This document shows, one piece after another, positions 1 to 40,929 of a stretch of 58,136 nt of DNA (positions within the stretch are counted from its first letter, which is position 1; every line of letters begins with the position of its first letter). The translations under genes and the position numbers were made by a program. The DNA comes from Anaerovorax odorimutans. Its GTDB lineage: Bacteria > Bacillota > Clostridia > Peptostreptococcales > JAAYPU01. The stretch spans positions 1 through 58,136 of the forward strand of contig JAENZQ010000024.1 of NCBI GenBank assembly GCA_016841185.1. Reading direction: 5' to 3'. The notes below the pieces were generated by a model, which saw only the letters and a program-made list of their open reading frames with translations, searched no databases and was not told the origin of the DNA.

Positions 1-972
1 GACGATTTTCGTAGAACCTTTACTGACAGCGCCCAATACAGCTAAAACAGGTACTAAATCCGGGCAATGGGAAGCATCAATAATGGTTCCTTTTGTGCAG
101 GAAGGTTTTACAATCATTTTATCCTGTTCAACAGAATAACGGCCGCCCATTTTTGAAATAATGTCCAATATGACTTTATCGCCCTGAAGAGAATCCCGAT
201 TAAGCCCTTTTAAGATCAATCCGTTTCCAATGAGTCCTGCGACGATCCAAAAAGCAGATTGGGAGTAATCGCTTTCTATCCGATAATTCCTCCCGATATA
301 TTTCTGACTGCCGGGGATATAAAAGGCTGAATAATCCCTGTTTGAGATTTTAATACCGAAACTTTCCAGAACATCCAGGGTCAGATCGATATATCCCTTT
401 GACTCAAGTACAGAAGTGATGTGAATGACAGAATCTCCTTTCAATAAAGGGAGAGCAAACAGCAAGCCGGTAATAAACTGGGAACTGATGTTGCCTGCAA
501 GGAGAAATTCACCGGATTTCAATCTGCCTTTCACCTGCAAGGGCAATTTCCCGTTAGCTGTTTCATAAGGAAAATTCTGCGTATTGAAAAGTTCATAGTA
601 GGGAGTCAGAGGTCTTTCGCCCAGTCTTTTTGATCCTGTAAAGGTTACTGAAGCATTGGATATAGCAGCCGCAATGGGAATCAGAAAGCGAAGGGTGGAA
701 CCGGATTCCCTGCAGTTTATTGTGGTTGGTTTCCCTTTGCTGTCCCGGATTCCACAGATGACAAGAGAAGAATTTTTTCTTTCGGCCTGAGCACCTAAAG
801 CCTCCATTCCTTCCATGGTGGCCTGAATATCATCGGATGTCATGAGATTGGTTATTTCAGATGTCCCATGAGAAAGCGCTGCAGCGATAATGGCTCGATG
901 GCTGATGCTTTTGGACGGAGGGATACGTATTTCACCGGATAATTGCTTTGGCTTTATGGTTACTGTATTCAC
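1..972 (-). CDS. aroA: 3-phosphoshikimate 1-carboxyvinyltransferase (EPSP synthase), C-terminus outside the window
   Basis: Transfers the enolpyruvyl group of PEP to shikimate-3-phosphate, the sixth shikimate-pathway step. The visible 324 codons start at GTG 972, which overlaps the aroB stop by four bases (GTGA), indicating translational coupling. Family hallmarks are visible: PPSKSISHRA near residue 20 (PEP/phosphate-binding lysine), ESGSTLRF near residue 90 (the NAGT-like loop), GNISSQF near residue 170, and PDLVPVLAVLGA with the conserved aspartate near residue 305. The family is usually about 420-430 residues, so roughly 100 C-terminal residues lie beyond position 1. It is the last visible gene of an aroF-tyrA-aroB-aroA operon. 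The family assignment is secure; glyphosate class was not determined. Confidence 0.95.
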   Translation of the reverse strand, partial: MNTVTIKPKQLSGEIRIPPSKSISHRAIIAAALSHGTSEITNLMTSDDIQATMEGMEALGAQAERKNSSLVICGIRDSKGKPTTINCRESGSTLRFLIPIAAAISNASVTFTGSKRLGERPLTPYYELFNTQNFPYETANGKLPLQVKGRLKSGEFLLAGNISSQFITGLLFALPLLKGDSVIHITSVLESKGYIDLTLDVLESFGIKISNRDYSAFYIPGSQKYIGRNYRIESDYSQSAFWIVAGLIGNGLILKGLNRDSLQGDKVILDIISKMGGRYSVEQDKMIVKPSCTKGTIIDASHCPDLVPVLAVLGAVSKGSTKIV

Positions 973-2048
973 ACCTTTACTCCTTCCTTAATAATAAATT
1001 CTTTTAAATTCTTTTTATCTGCTAAATGTATAAAGCTTTCTCCAATGGCTTTTAATAAAACAAGATGTATGTCATTGCCTCTGGATTTTTTGTCAGGGCT
1101 CAGGGCTTCCGACAGGCTTGCTTCGTCAATATCAGGGAGGTTAAAGGGCAAATTGAATTTAATGAGGAGATTTTTTATTCTTTCTGCTGTTCCTTTCTGA
1201 GTATATCCCATTTCTTCACTTTTGCCGGTAATGTGATACATACCGACGGCAACAGCTTCGCCATGGGTGTATTTTTTATAATGATATATTTTTTCTACAG
1301 CATGCCCGAATGTGTGGCCGAAGTTCAAGAGCATTCTGGTGCTTTCATCTTTTTCGTCTTCTTCTACAATTCTCTTTTTGATTTCACAGCATCTTAGGAT
1401 GATTTCATCCATATGTGAAATCAACTGCTTCTGATTAAGCGTTTCCAACTTGGAAAAAAGTTCTGAGTCTTTAATACATCCGTATTTGATGACTTCAGCC
1501 ATGCCGTCGGAAAAGAACCTGGGTTTCAGTGAATGAAGAAGCTGCGGATCGATAAAAACAGCCCGGGGATGGTAGAAACTGCCGACAAGATTTTTGCCCT
1601 CTTTCAGATTGACAGCTGTTTTTCCTCCTATACTGCTGTCCACCTGAGCGATCAGAGAAGTCGGGATCTGGATAAATGGGATGCCTCTGAGAAAAGTAGC
1701 AGCAGCGAAACCTGTCAAGTCACCGATGACGCCACCACCGAAAGCAATGAGTAAATCGCTTTTTGTCATATCAAAGTTCAGGAGTTCTTTATAAACACAT
1801 TCAAGAACCCCCAATGACTTACTGTTTTCTCCGGGATAAAGCCGTATCAGATGGACCTGAAAGCCAGATTTTTCAATATTTTGTATTAACGCATCACCAT
1901 AAAGTGCATCCACATTTTTGTCTGTGACAATGACAATTTTTTTTCTTTGGGCATAAGGTAATATTTTTTTGCCGATTTTTTTGATGATATCTTTTTCTAT
2001 AATAATAGGGTAAGAAGTATCAGGTAGATCAATATTTAACGATAACAT
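969..2048 (-). CDS. aroB: 3-dehydroquinate synthase
   Basis: Converts DAHP to 3-dehydroquinate using catalytic NAD and a divalent metal. At 359 residues it has the standard family length. The NAD-binding glycine cluster FGGGVIGDLTGF and the substrate loop PTSLIAQVDSSIGGKTAVN lie around residues 105-148. The metal ligands can be placed in GMAEVIKYG, FGHTFGHAVE and YTHGEAVAVGM. The ATG start is two bases from the tyrA stop (2050) and the stop overlaps the aroA GTG, so the gene is tightly embedded in the operon. No oddities were seen. Confidence 0.96.
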   Translation of the reverse strand: MLSLNIDLPDTSYPIIIEKDIIKKIGKKILPYAQRKKIVIVTDKNVDALYGDALIQNIEKSGFQVHLIRLYPGENSKSLGVLECVYKELLNFDMTKSDLLIAFGGGVIGDLTGFAAATFLRGIPFIQIPTSLIAQVDSSIGGKTAVNLKEGKNLVGSFYHPRAVFIDPQLLHSLKPRFFSDGMAEVIKYGCIKDSELFSKLETLNQKQLISHMDEIILRCCEIKKRIVEEDEKDESTRMLLNFGHTFGHAVEKIYHYKKYTHGEAVAVGMYHITGKSEEMGYTQKGTAERIKNLLIKFNLPFNLPDIDEASLSEALSPDKKSRGNDIHLVLLKAIGESFIHLADKKNLKEFIIKEGVKV

Positions 2049-2049
2049 A

Positions 2050-2898
2050 TTATTTCATCTCCTCTTTCTTTTTGGTGCAGGTGTTAAAAATGGTTTTTAG
2101 ACGCTCTATATCCTGAGAGGAAAGGGCTTTACGTATCTCATCCATTTCATTCATAAAGGCATCCATAAGAGGCATTAAATGGTCACGATTCTCCATGATC
2201 AATTGAGCCCAAAGCGGGGCATTCATTTTGGCGATTCGCGTAAATTCGCCAAAGCTGTTTCCGGTAAATCTCAGTACATCCTTTTCTTCATTGCAGTTAA
2301 TGAGTGAAGCTGCGATCAGATGCGGCATCTGGCTGGTATAGCCGATAATCCTGTCGTGTTTTTCCGGAGATACTCTGGATATTTTACCAAATCCCACCGC
2401 TTTTAGCAAAGTTTCTATTTTCTGAATATGAGCTTCGCTGTTTATTGATGAAGGGGTCAATAAAAAGTTCGCACCGTCAAAAAGAGTTTCGGAAGCAGCA
2501 TCAACGCCCTTGCCTTCATTGCCTGCCATAGGGTGGCCTCCGATATACTCGATATCTTTACGGATAAAGGTTTGAACTTCTTTTACAATGCCGCGCTTGA
2601 TTCCTGAAGTATCCATGACAATGGTACCGGGTTTTAATATGGACATGTGTTTCGACATAAAAGCTGCGGTGTCATGCGGATAAATTGCCAGAACCACCAC
2701 ATCCGAATTGGAAAGGGGGTATTCCGGTTCTGTAAACCCTTCATCGATCATATTATTCTTTTTTGCCTTAAATAAAGTCTCGCGGCTTTTATCGATACCC
2801 CAGACATTTTTGATATCCAGCTTTTTAAGCTTATAAGCAAAAGAGCCTCCAATGACACCTAAACCTACAATACTAATATTAAAATCATATTCCTCCAC
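2050..2898 (-). CDS. tyrA: Prephenate dehydrogenase
   Basis: Oxidatively decarboxylates prephenate to 4-hydroxyphenylpyruvate, the committed step to tyrosine. The 282-residue protein opens with a Rossmann motif, VGLGVIGGSFA (residues 11-21), and carries the family signature GGHPMAGNEGKGVDAA around residue 120, which contains the catalytic histidine region. There is no C-terminal ACT domain, unlike longer Bacillus-type enzymes, so feedback inhibition by tyrosine may be absent or work differently. This is of interest because the operon instead appears to be controlled by attenuation. It lies between aroF (16-bp gap) and aroB (1-bp gap). Confidence 0.93.
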   Translation of the reverse strand: MEEYDFNISIVGLGVIGGSFAYKLKKLDIKNVWGIDKSRETLFKAKKNNMIDEGFTEPEYPLSNSDVVVLAIYPHDTAAFMSKHMSILKPGTIVMDTSGIKRGIVKEVQTFIRKDIEYIGGHPMAGNEGKGVDAASETLFDGANFLLTPSSINSEAHIQKIETLLKAVGFGKISRVSPEKHDRIIGYTSQMPHLIAASLINCNEEKDVLRFTGNSFGEFTRIAKMNAPLWAQLIMENRDHLMPLMDAFMNEMDEIRKALSSQDIERLKTIFNTCTKKKEEMK

Positions 2899-2914: not shown

Positions 2915-3931
2915 TTAAATAGATTTATCCAGAAACTGTGATAAAGATTTTAAAGTATCCATTAAGTGATCAAGTTTATCCGGTTTTATGGATTGTTGGC
3001 CATCGCTTTTGGCATTCTGAGGATCCTGATGGACCTCAATCATAATACCATCTGCACCTACGGCAAAAGCTGCCTTGGCCAGCGGCTCCACTAACCACCA
3101 TTCTCCTGAAGCATGGCTGGGGTCCACAATAATGGGAAGATGACTGAGTTTTTTTATGACAGGAACAGAACTGATATCCAAGGTATTTCTTGTATATTTT
3201 TCAAAGGTCCTTATACCTCTTTCACAGAGGATTACGTTATCATTCCCTCCTGACATAATGTATTCGGCTGCCATTAATAGTTCCTCAATTGTTGCGGACA
3301 AGCCTCTTTTCAGCAAGACAGGCTTATCTGTACGTCCTAATTCTTTAAGAAGCATGAAGTTCTGCATGTTTCTTGCACCTACCTGGATGATATCCACGTT
3401 TTCATTGAAATAGTCGATTTTGTCGATGGACATGATTTCCGTAACAATAGGTAAGCCGGTCTCACGTTTTGCCTCATTTAAAATTTCAATCCCTTCTTCT
3501 CCTAAACCCTGAAAACTATAGGGGGATGTACGGGGCTTAAAAGCGCCTCCTCTTAAAAAGTGCGCTCCGGACTTCTTGATTTGCCGTGCCAAATCCATCA
3601 ATGATTCTCTGCTTTCGACGGAGCAGGGGCCTGCAATTACACCGAAATGCTTTCCTCCCAGTTTATGCCCGTCGATATCTATGACAGAATCATCAGGTCG
3701 GAACATTTTACTGGCTTTTTTATAAGGAGATTGAACCCTAATGAGTTTTTCCACGATACGGTTGGCTTCAATGGAAGAAGGGTCTATGGTTGAGGTGTCT
3801 CCCACAACGCCTAACAAGTGATAATTTGTTCCTTTACTTTCATGGATTTCGATGTCGTGTTCTTTTATCAGTCTTTTTTTTATGGCATCGATTTCTTCCA
3901 GCGGGGCGTCTTTGCACATTACAATAATCAT
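2915..3931 (-). CDS. aroF: 3-deoxy-7-phosphoheptulonate (DAHP) synthase, type I-beta with N-terminal regulatory domain
   Basis: Condenses PEP and erythrose-4-phosphate, the entry step of the shikimate pathway. Residues 1 to about 70 form a ferredoxin/ACT-like domain as in the Thermotoga-type enzyme, which in that family mediates Tyr/Phe feedback. The catalytic barrel follows with GPCSVES (metal/PEP binding), [18 protein letters not shown], and the terminal [10 protein letters not shown] and [16 protein letters not shown] motifs. At 338 residues it matches this class. It is the first structural gene after a leader with a Tyr/Phe-rich ORF and a terminator, so both its expression and its activity may sense aromatic amino acids. 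Confidence 0.96.
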
Positions 3932-3968: not shown

Positions 3969-3994
3969 AAAAAAAAGACTCATTAATGAGTCTT
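3969..3994 (-). terminator. Attenuator terminator of the aro operon
   Basis: Read on the minus strand, a perfect 20-base palindrome (3975-3994) folds into an 8-bp stem with a UUAA loop and runs directly into eight U residues (3976-3969). It lies 37 bases before the aroF start, inside the transcribed leader, so it must be bypassed for aroF expression. Its 5' arm (ACTCATTAA) is exactly complementary to TTAATGAGT inside the leader ORF (4071-4063). The two structures are therefore mutually exclusive, as expected of an attenuator. Confidence 0.82.
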
Positions 3995-4030
3995 CTTATA
4001 TATCATCATTTTGATATTTTTTACAATTTT

Positions 4031-4186
4031 TTATGCAGCACCATTGAGGACTGCGTAAGGAAACTCATTAAAAAAGGAATCATATATTTTTTTGCAGTAA
4101 AAGTAGCCGGCGCTAAAATAAAAGCTCCAGCAAAAGTAAAAGTAGTATTCTTTTAATGCAAATTCCTTTCTTAAAACTCGTTCCAT
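4031..4186 (-). CDS. Tyr/Phe-rich leader peptide of the aro operon
   Basis: A 51-codon ORF lies between the promoter and the attenuator. It starts at ATG 4186 with a strong GGAGGA Shine-Dalgarno five bases upstream (about 4192-4197). It contains 8 Tyr, 9 Phe and 1 Trp; residues 14-30 alone carry 12 aromatics, including YYFYFCWSFYF and GYFY. A run of this kind is the hallmark of a ribosome-stalling leader peptide that measures charged tRNA-Tyr and tRNA-Phe, the end products of the downstream genes. The peptide itself need have no function. Codons 39-42 encode the RNA segment that can pair with the terminator 5' arm. Translation is inferred, not shown. Confidence 0.85.
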   Translation of the reverse strand: MERVLRKEFALKEYYFYFCWSFYFSAGYFYCKKIYDSFFNEFPYAVLNGAA

Positions 4187-4223
4187 GATGTCCTCCAAAT
4201 TAGCTTTTCTGCTATTTTAACTT

Positions 4224-4253
4224 ATTGTATATACATTCATACATAAATGTCAA
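4224..4253 (-). promoter_or_regulatory. Promoter of the aro operon
   Basis: On the minus strand a perfect -35 TTGACA (4253-4248) is followed after 18 bases by TACAAT (4229-4224). Transcription would start near 4217, about 30 bases before the leader-peptide ATG. The spacing is one base longer than optimal; an overlapping TATACA at 16 bases is an alternative -10. Confidence 0.7.
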
Positions 4254-26900: not shown

Positions 26901-28045
26901 ATGTAAATAAATATAAGGGGGTCGATATAGACAATGGTATTGTCGTTTGGAATTTAGCCATAGTGGAATGTAAATGTGGGTGGTTAGTGAGAGCGTGTCG
27001 AATTAGTCCCGTTTGGAATTTAGCCATAGTGGAATGTAAATATGTCCTACAAAGTCAATTCCTGATGTGCTGAGATAGTTTGGAATTTAGCCATAGTGGA
27101 ATGTAAATATCACAGAAATAAATGATACAAAATATGAGATAATCGTTTGGAATTTAGCCATAGTGGAATGTAAATAACATTGAAAAAGCAATTGATATGG
27201 CATTTAGAGAAGTTTGGAATTTAGCCATAGTGGAATGTAAATTTAAAGTGGCGAATGTGTGCCTGCAACAATGCGGCGGTTTGGAATTTAGCCATAGTGG
27301 AATGTAAATATACATGACACCTACAAGCATTGGACCAGCTTGTTAGTTTGGAATTTAGCCATAGTGGAATGTAAATTTGCTTCTTCTCTTGTCATTCTTG
27401 TCATTTTGTTTCGTTTGGAATTTAGCCATAGTGGAATGTAAATAAAGATACAGAACTGAAACATGTTTGCCATAACATTGTTTGGAATTTAGCCATAGTG
27501 GAATGTAAATTTTTATAACAAAATTGAAGAAAACGCAAGCACTTTTGTTTGGAATTTAGCCATAGTGGAATGTAAATTTTTATGGGTGCATGGTAGACTA
27601 CACCCAAGTGTACGTTTGGAATTTAGCCATAGTGGAATGTAAATACGTTTCTTGTAAGTCCGCATCCTTTATTTCCTTAGGTTTGGAATTTAGCCATAGT
27701 GGAATGTAAATGGTTTCAGCTTCTAATAGTTCTATCAACTTTTCTTCAGTTTGGAATTTAGCCATAGTGGAATGTAAATATTTATAAAATTCATGGTCTT
27801 TCACAGTGACGACGGTTTGGAATTTAGCCATAGTGGAATGTAAATAAAACCGGGACTAATCTCCCACCTATGCAAAACCGTTTGGAATTTAGCCATAGTG
27901 GAATGTAAATCAAATAAAAAAAAGAGTCTGCTTAAATGATGGCATATGTTTGGAATTTAGCCATAGTGGAATGTAAATAAAGTATAGAAGATTTTATCAA
28001 CGAGGGAGGCAAACGTTTGGAATTTAGCCATAGTGGAATGTAAAT
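23934..28045 (+). CRISPR. Type I-B CRISPR array, 62 repeats and 61 spacers
   Basis: The repeat is 31 bases, starting GTTTGGAATTTAGCC and ending GGAATGTAAAT; the unit spacing is 65-68 bases, so spacers are about 34-37 bases. I counted 62 repeats from 23934 to the last at 28015-28045. Almost all are identical; single-base variants occur at 25135 (GGAAATTAG) and 26878 (TAGCAATAG). The last eight bases, ATGTAAAT, are the predicted crRNA 5' handle. Orientation follows the cas operon: the leader is at 23759-23933. No two spacers looked identical on reading. The uniformity and length suggest an active, well-maintained array. Confidence 0.98.
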
Positions 28046-28068
28046 GTTGTTATGGAGTAGCTCGTGGG

Positions 28069-28164
28069 CGTAAAATATCCAGAATAACAAGGATTGAAAC
28101 TCAAGATAAATCCATTGTCTATTAAGAATATCGTCGCACCCCATACGGGTGCGTGGATTGAAAC
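28069..28164 (+). repeat. Relic of a type I-C CRISPR array: one intact repeat and one decayed repeat end
   Basis: 28133-28164 is a 32-base sequence starting GTCGCACCCCATACGGG and ending GCGTGGATTGAAAC, the classical type I-C (Dvulg) repeat with its CGCACCC/GGGTGCG hairpin. It has no similarity to the I-B repeat. Exactly 32 bases before it, a second GGATTGAAAC (28091-28100) marks the 3' end of a decayed upstream repeat, leaving a spacer-like 28101-28132. No I-C cas genes are in the window. It abuts the trailer end of the I-B array. Confidence 0.85.
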
Positions 28165-40719: not shown

Positions 40720-40929
40720 TGAGTGACTGCAGGGAATAGTAAAAATGTAAGTCTTATAGAGAGTAAACAGTATGGTGGAAAGTTTGCAGACTGAAGTTTT
40801 GAACCCGCTCTGTTTTTTGTCGCTTCGTATACAAACCGCGTTATGGTTTGTTAAAGGGAGTCCGAAAGGACTAAAAAGAGTGGTACCGCGGGTCAGTCTC
40901 GTCTCTTCAGAGAGATGAGGCTTTTTTGT
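40720..40929 (+). promoter_or_regulatory. T-box riboswitch leader
   Basis: The T-box itself is AGAGTGGTACCGCGGG (40877-40892), close to the consensus AGGGTGGNACCGCGG. The terminator follows, CTCGTCTCT pairing with AGAGATGAG and running into six T residues (about 40898-40927). Stem I is bounded by GAGTG (about 40722) and CGCTC (about 40808), with GGTGGAAAG in its distal part. UGGU predicts a tRNA with discriminator A. I could not fix the specifier codon; it must lie in the segment CTGAAGTTTTGAACC on the 3' side of stem I. Confidence 0.88.

Follow-up and report, generated by a model that had tools for sequence, protein, structure and literature searches.

Genes and features of the aroF locus

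The window analyzed, a stretch of 58,136 nucleotides of DNA from Anaerovorax odorimutans, carries at one end an aroF-tyrA-aroB-aroA operon (Table 1). It is preceded by a leader ORF with a Shine-Dalgarno (SD) sequence in front, which encodes the peptide MERVLRKEFALKEYYFYFCWSFYFSAGYFYCKKIYDSFFNEFPYAVLNGAA. Eighteen of its codons are aromatic (9 Phe, 8 Tyr and 1 Trp), and 12 of these lie within codons 14–30. All these figures, given earlier in a first-pass annotation of the sequence, were reproduced, and so was the terminator with a U8 tract that it had placed before aroF. The terminator scan returned two terminator-like sites (the same palindrome, one per strand) versus 0.2 expected, and the leader plus terminator folded 5.3 standard deviations below 200 shuffled sequences. 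Promoter-like sites at the leader region numbered five versus 5.8 expected, i.e., there was no excess over chance.

In the fold of the leader, two helices joined region 1 to region 2 (4174-4161 with 4081-4068, and 4160-4150 with 4103-4093), and this pairing enclosed a small apical hairpin, GCUGGAGCU ... AGCGCCGGC, with Phe and Tyr codons in its loop. The putative antiterminator segment, TTAATGAGT, has its complement, ACTCATTAA, at 3991-3983. The best duplex formed by this segment comprised 11 pairs (−10.7 kcal/mol) and was equalled by none of 50 shuffles, which bears out the 11-pair complementarity to the terminator 5′ arm noticed in the first-pass annotation.

No Rfam match to the leader (3969-4253) was obtained with 4227 models, leader families included, at E values up to 1. 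The T-box model RF00230, searched with the same E limit, matched a single site, away from the leader at 40723-40909 (90.7 bits, E = 1.7e-18, just under the Rfam gathering score of 93), in line with the mention of a T-box elsewhere in the window in the first-pass annotation. The window also contains a CRISPR-like array with the repeat GTTTGGAATTTAGCCATAGTGGAATGTAAAT, directly followed by two further repeat-like units, present in one copy each and ending in ATTGAAAC, one of which is GTCGCACCCCATACGGGTGCGTGGATTGAAAC.

Table 1. Features of the aroF locus and other elements of the window.
Feature	Coordinates	Strand	Basis or remark
aroA, presumably (incomplete, runs off the window end)	1..972	-	label assigned from its sequence
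aroB, 3-dehydroquinate synthase	969..2048	-	TIGR01357
tyrA-like prephenate dehydrogenase	2050..2898	-	best models score under curated cut-offs
aroF, DAHP synthase	2915..3931	-	NF006421 / TIGR01361
U8 tract of the terminator	3976-3969	-	
Intrinsic terminator hairpin (regions 3:4)	3997-3972	-	terminator scan; 11 pairs, 4-nt loop
Leader ORF, 51 codons, ATG to TAA	4186-4031	-	ORF list and relatives
Putative antiterminator segment	4071-4063	-	complementary to terminator 5′ arm
Region 2, 3′ strand of long hairpin	4068..4103	-	fold; family test
Apical hairpin, Phe/Tyr codons in loop	4106..4131	-	fold, covariation
Region 1, 5′ strand of long protector hairpin	4150..4174	-	fold of leader; family test
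Shine-Dalgarno TGGAGGA of leader ORF	4191..4197	-	GGAGG core before ATG
Promoter-like TTGACA-18-TACAAT	4253-4224	-	11/12 consensus matches
CRISPR-like array	27600-28160		
T-box leader	40723-40909	+	RF00230

Occurrence of the leader upstream of DAHP synthase genes

A survey for DAHP synthase was positive in 35 of 40 genomes, the own genome counted. At a strict cut-off, the order had 110 places with the enzyme, spread over 97 of its 198 genomes, and the regions upstream of 101 of these places were examined for leader ORFs having an SD score of at least 4 and at least 7 aromatic residues within some 12. Such an ORF was present in 80 of the 101 regions, a count that does not represent independent trials, as the loci are mutually related. 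None of 505 dinucleotide shuffles of the same regions contained a leader-like ORF, so the leader is well above chance. With a laxer SD rule the leaders amounted to 86, and an intrinsic terminator, by our own criterion, followed 78 of them.

The 21 regions without a leader at the set thresholds include one in which the sequence stretch stops short of the leader (L009), six accepted under the laxer SD rule (L010, L014, L024, L211, L213 and L221) and one in which the leader sits before an upstream gene instead (L117, the leader being L239). Leader conservation in relatives, a check put forward with the first reading of this locus, thus gave a positive result by comparison. In contrast, the view that such a leader would be unusual for a clostridium did not hold, since it is common in the order.

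Among 80 loci with titled records, the motif was recognized by eye in Clostridium magnum (L031), C. ganghwense (L032), a Pelosinus MAG (L035), a Clostridium MAG (L039) and a Clostridia MAG (L040, apparently the same contig as L019). A loose aromatic filter, applied to these 80 loci with neither SD nor shuffle control, gave 43 with an ORF, several of them plainly by chance, and 37 with none.

Two variants of the arrangement were observed. In L205 and L207, the roughly 450 bases upstream of the DAHP synthase gene contain two different aromatic leader ORFs, one after the other. Both have a terminator-like hairpin behind them (that of the first ORF was read by eye); apparently, they are two attenuators in series. 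The leaders of L024, L206, L208, L218, L219, L234 and others, in family f10, are of a FAAEYYYY type that is devoid of the W-G/S-A-G hairpin, and in several f10 leaders terminator arms such as GCAGTCGAAAC find their partner in a segment resembling TTTTGCTGC. Taken together, an aromatic leader coupled to an RNA switch looks like a common but little-described sensor of aromatic amino acid starvation.

The conserved peptide motif and the apical hairpin

The leaders share a peptide core resembling WGFYFSAGYF, the W-G/S codons of which pair in the RNA with the S-A-G codons (GCUGGRGC ... GCGCYRGY). The first-pass annotation had anticipated the conservation of aromatic codons rather than of the peptide, and in this it was mistaken, as a peptide motif is conserved. 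Covariation was analyzed starting from 114 sequences, 89 of which matched a loose peptide pattern; three mis-registered rows (L020, L128 and L204) were dropped, leaving 86 rows with 40 distinct arm pairs. Each of the six core pairs was canonical in 39 or 40 of the 40 arm pairs, and the outermost one in merely 26. The covariation score was 368, versus a mean of 101 and a maximum of 263 in 2000 shuffles, and the paired fraction of the arms was 0.94 in the true register versus 0.22–0.42 in slid registers. The covarying codons are TGG (Trp) with GCT or GCC (Ala), TTG (Leu) with GCA, TTA (Leu) with GTA (Val), and GAC (Asp) with GGT (Gly). In our reading, an RNA hairpin has left its imprint in the WGFYFSAGYF-like motif: the peptide would be conserved because pairing in the cap constrains the codons, the bases co-varying as the residues change.

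A DNA pattern of the hairpin was found in 58 of the 198 genomes of the order, a number including two accidental-looking matches (G097:C30 and G019:C189) whose loops, by eye, are not aromatic codons; the reversed-pattern control gave 0. In the phylum, the pattern was found in 5 of 398 genomes, own genome included, and the reversed control in 1. A frame-blind pattern gave 73 distinct contexts, with G097:C30 probably among them, and in all 73 the loop length was divisible by three, as expected for a translated stretch.

Another explanation of the motif would be nascent-peptide arrest, in which the WGFYFSAGYF-like peptide jams the ribosome exit tunnel and perhaps senses free aromatic amino acids as TnaC does, in place of starvation read codon by codon. 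The motif is indeed peptide-like and conserved over many families, but a change of residue goes along with a change in the RNA partner, the exceptions being L032 (TTG with GCT), L017 (GAC with AGC) and L194 (a mismatch). The serine codon of the 3′ arm is AGC in 36 of the 40 distinct arm pairs and never TCN (the other four encode Gly), and in L018 and L022, which belong to one genus, the hairpin is preserved although the reading frame is shifted, with APV replacing SAG. Moreover, the divergent FAAEYYYY group does without the motif, and the residue conservation independent of RNA pairing that marks a TnaC-like peptide was not found in the sequences. Considering the codon-level covariation and the frame-shifted leaders, arrest was set aside as improbable.

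A binding site in the apical hairpin for a trans-acting protein or a small molecule, with the ORF being secondary, would account for the strong conservation of AGCGCYGG and for a purine-purine mismatch that occupies the stem in 38 of the 40 distinct arm pairs (A-U in the other two). This reading is very unlikely, as the loops, of 6 to 21 nt, vary in codon steps only, leaders lacking the hairpin still have the aromatic codons and the leader has no match in Rfam.

An additional trait of many leaders is an in-frame run of 6–7 A after the S-A-G codons (e.g., near 4095-4087 in the window), often as two Lys codons, which occurs in several families and pairs partly with U-rich codons. It could also be a slippery site.

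Antiterminator, protector helix and modelled switching

The complementarity between the antiterminator segment (region 2) and the terminator 5′ arm (region 3) was compared with 50 shuffles in 78 leaders. At most one shuffle was as good in 22 of them, the window included (about 1.6 expected), and at most five in 37. The segment follows the terminator through several types of arms, CTCATTA/TAATGAG, CTCTTAG/CTAAGA, CTCTTGG/CCGAGA and GCAGTCGAAAC/GTTTTGCTGC, so that the terminator arms of relatives co-vary with it. These comparisons support a 2:3 pairing kept with compensating changes, though not in every leader. Swapping terminator arms between loci was tried as a test and rejected for its poor discrimination: an average of 28% of the arms taken from other loci pair equally well, because the arms of relatives are alike.

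The 1:2 pairing was evaluated in those 55 of the 86 leaders whose anatomy was clear; the other 31 lacked the motif or a terminator or were set aside because of their register. In 29 of the 55, the window included, at most one of 50 shuffles was as good, and in 49 of the 55 the 3′ strand of the 1:2 helix overlapped the antiterminator segment by at least 5 nt. Leaders deprived of the terminator folded below their shuffles (10 each), with a median z of −2.5 and 34 of the 55 under −2.

The competition among these helices was modelled in three states: with no ribosome, with a ribosome stalled at the loop end and with one standing at the stop codon. A first, cruder measure, the pairedness of the terminator 5′ arm, gave 0.54, 0.65 and 0.49 in the 55 leaders (no ribosome, stalled and at stop, respectively). 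This measure is blunt, and therefore the specific 2:3 probability was computed, in 49 of the 55 leaders; the other six were dropped with the best partner lying in or before the hairpin or within the footprint. With the terminator 3′ arm still absent, the mean 2:3 probability was 0.27 in the ribosome-free state, 0.60 upon stalling and 0.11 once the ribosome stood at the stop codon, and values of at least 0.5 were reached in 14, 37 and 4 of the 49 leaders, respectively. In 43 of the 49, the stalled value was above the no-ribosome value; region 2 was defined as the segment pairing best with region 3, which favours the stalled value. When region 1 was shuffled, the mean rose to 0.44 with no ribosome and to 0.25 at the stop codon, and the real region 1 gave the lower value in 35 of the 49 leaders in both states. 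These models are equilibrium ones in which the order of synthesis is merely mimicked. Four leaders (L014, L017, L118 and L180) showed no antiterminator in the modelled stalled state, and that of the window switched weakly (0.68, 0.79 and 0.58).

This weak switch of the window leader is what could be said for an ORF occurring by chance or decaying neutrally in front of a merely constitutive terminator or polarity site, a possibility that is hardly credible given the 0/505 shuffles, the apical covariation and the presence of this element ahead of several genes of the aromatic pathway.

Proposed mechanism

We consider that the window leader is a ribosome-mediated transcription attenuator sensing charged tRNA-Tyr and tRNA-Phe, with a probability of roughly 0.87. 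Comparison and folding establish the ORF, the SD sequence, the codon bias, the terminator, the alternative helices (by covariation or above-shuffle complementarity) and the preservation of the frame; from these we infer that, in the cell, the leader is translated, ribosomes stall on it and RNA polymerase reads through.

According to the model, four regions of the leader transcript would compete. With no ribosome, or with a ribosome already at the stop codon, regions 1 and 2 would form a long hairpin, at the tip of which sits the small GC-rich hairpin whose loop consists of Phe/Tyr codons. The closed 1:2 helix would let the 3:4 terminator form, and the aroF-tyrA-aroB-aroA operon would be off. 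Under shortage of Tyr or Phe, a ribosome would stall at the clustered codons of the cap and its surroundings and keep the long hairpin open, leaving region 2 free to pair with the terminator 5′ arm, so that RNA polymerase would read on.

The reading of the locus as a Tyr/Phe-codon attenuator had been advanced in the first-pass annotation, and it is strengthened by the recurrence in the order of the leader ORF, the terminator and the antiterminator with compensating changes. The same annotation had cautioned that the geometry differs from the trp paradigm. The oddity is real, as region 2 is not covered by a ribosome at the stop codon, but the 1:2 helix that explains it had been missed: by that time, 1:2 could form again.

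A wider proposal, to which we give even odds, is that of a distinct, order-wide attenuator class in which the control codons are displayed in the loop of a conserved hairpin, this hairpin nucleates the protector helix and one compact device serves the entire aromatic regulon, in response to the charging of Phe/Tyr tRNAs and, where an additional Trp codon is present, possibly to that of Trp.

Genes downstream of other copies of the leader

The regulon was delineated from 20 hairpin matches away from the DAHP synthase places plus three near them (L195, L199 and L239). NCBIfam was run on 17 proteins, and the remaining labels were assigned by likeness. Most of the identified genes downstream of leaders belong to the aromatic pathway, with copies preceding pheA-, aroE-, aroK/aroD- and trpE-type operons, besides LarAH10-like racemase-symporter loci.

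By NCBIfam, DAHP synthase follows the leader in L162, L163 and L164, with a TrpE-type protein behind it in L164 (under the cut-off of the TrpE model), and L165 has a TrpG-type protein. Shikimate kinase was identified in L167, L177, L178 and L179 (within a longer protein in L167 and L179), next to aroD in L178; aroE in L171; a chorismate mutase/prephenate dehydratase, then a DAHP synthase, in L195; and a LarAH10-like racemase with a sodium-solute symporter in L172 and L175. By likeness alone, L160 and L161 have DAHP synthase, L165 and L166 are as L164, L168 as L167, L173 as L171, L174 and L176 as L172 and L175, and L199 as L195. The leaders of L169, L170 and L239 precede genes with no assigned identity; for the first gene after L239, NCBIfam gave no family. 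In L169 (G056:C28:221300-225400), a tRNA gene cluster and then masked sequence lie downstream of the leader with its terminator. Outside the order, we take the genes after L240–L243 to be DAHP synthase-like and that after L247 to be ACT-like.

Concerning the loop codons, a Trp codon is present in all three loci read as DAHP synthase-trpE (L164–L166) versus one of the 86 other matched rows (L125). This is suggestive of Trp sensing by such leaders.

In L172, L174, L175 and L176, racemase and symporter genes lie behind an aromatic leader, in both gene orders. The LarAH10 model scored 459 and 503 with the L172 and L175 proteins versus a cut-off of 540, so the placement is approximate. LarAH10 of Megasphaera elsdenii has been reported as a phenyllactate racemase (PMC7583248). 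In a later work, LarAH10 is grouped with racemases of hydrophobic 2-hydroxyacids, D-gluconate being the likely native substrate, and the true substrates of C. pasteurianum LarAH52 and of LarAH66 are said to be possibly still unidentified (PMC11770544). A Phe/Tyr leader before LarAH10-like genes suggests aromatic substrates, and for relatives of LarAH52 and LarAH66 among these loci it would point to phenyllactate or hydroxyphenyllactate. If the hairpin-class reading is true, the LarAH10-like racemase and symporter genes would have functions related to aromatic 2-hydroxyacids of the phenyllactate type.

Comparison with known attenuators

Bacillota are usually associated with T-boxes for the control of aromatic synthesis genes, and the classical ribosome-mediated attenuators are those of the trp, pheA, his and leu operons of proteobacteria. 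Comparison of sequences with these was made through the Rfam models alone and gave no match. Leader-peptide attenuation beyond proteobacteria is documented, for other amino acids and genes, by the his leaders of bacilli (PMC2965389) and a reported leucine-rich attenuator of Staphylococcus aureus (PMC5794164).

Closer precedents concern the aromatic pathway itself. Stav et al. 2019, who scanned five genomes including Clostridium novyi, list, in their Fig. 6b legend, two candidate uORFs that encode F and Y and are associated with shikimate genes (PMC6429828). The comparison is one of descriptions, as the available text gives no sequence, alternative pairing, wider regulon or source genome; like the leaders studied here, those uORFs encode F and Y and stand in front of shikimate genes, and they are probably the same or a related motif. 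The uORFC-13-1 motif, located upstream of aroF in Acholeplasma and environmental sequences only (24 representatives), shares with the present family a Phe-coding uORF, a terminator and aroF, but a codon-loop hairpin is absent from its description in the available text (PMC8632094). No such motif appears in the accessible part of PMC11109978, and the literature search returned no recognized description of the pairings or the regulon of this leader family. The mechanism is known and partly foreshadowed in print. Within reach of that search, what appears to be new is the conserved hairpin that carries the codons, together with the anatomy of four regions and the regulon.

Should the proposal be right, classical leader-peptide attenuation would commonly govern aromatic synthesis across a large clostridial order, and the hairpin motif would offer a searchable signature as well as a regulon. 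The window leader resembles the classical proteobacterial attenuators in having a leader ORF with control codons, regions pairing as 1:2, 2:3 and 3:4, and an intrinsic terminator. It differs from them in that the control codons are placed within and next to the loop of a conserved hairpin that separates region 1 from region 2, and in that region 2 is inside the ORF, some 30 nt ahead of the stop codon.
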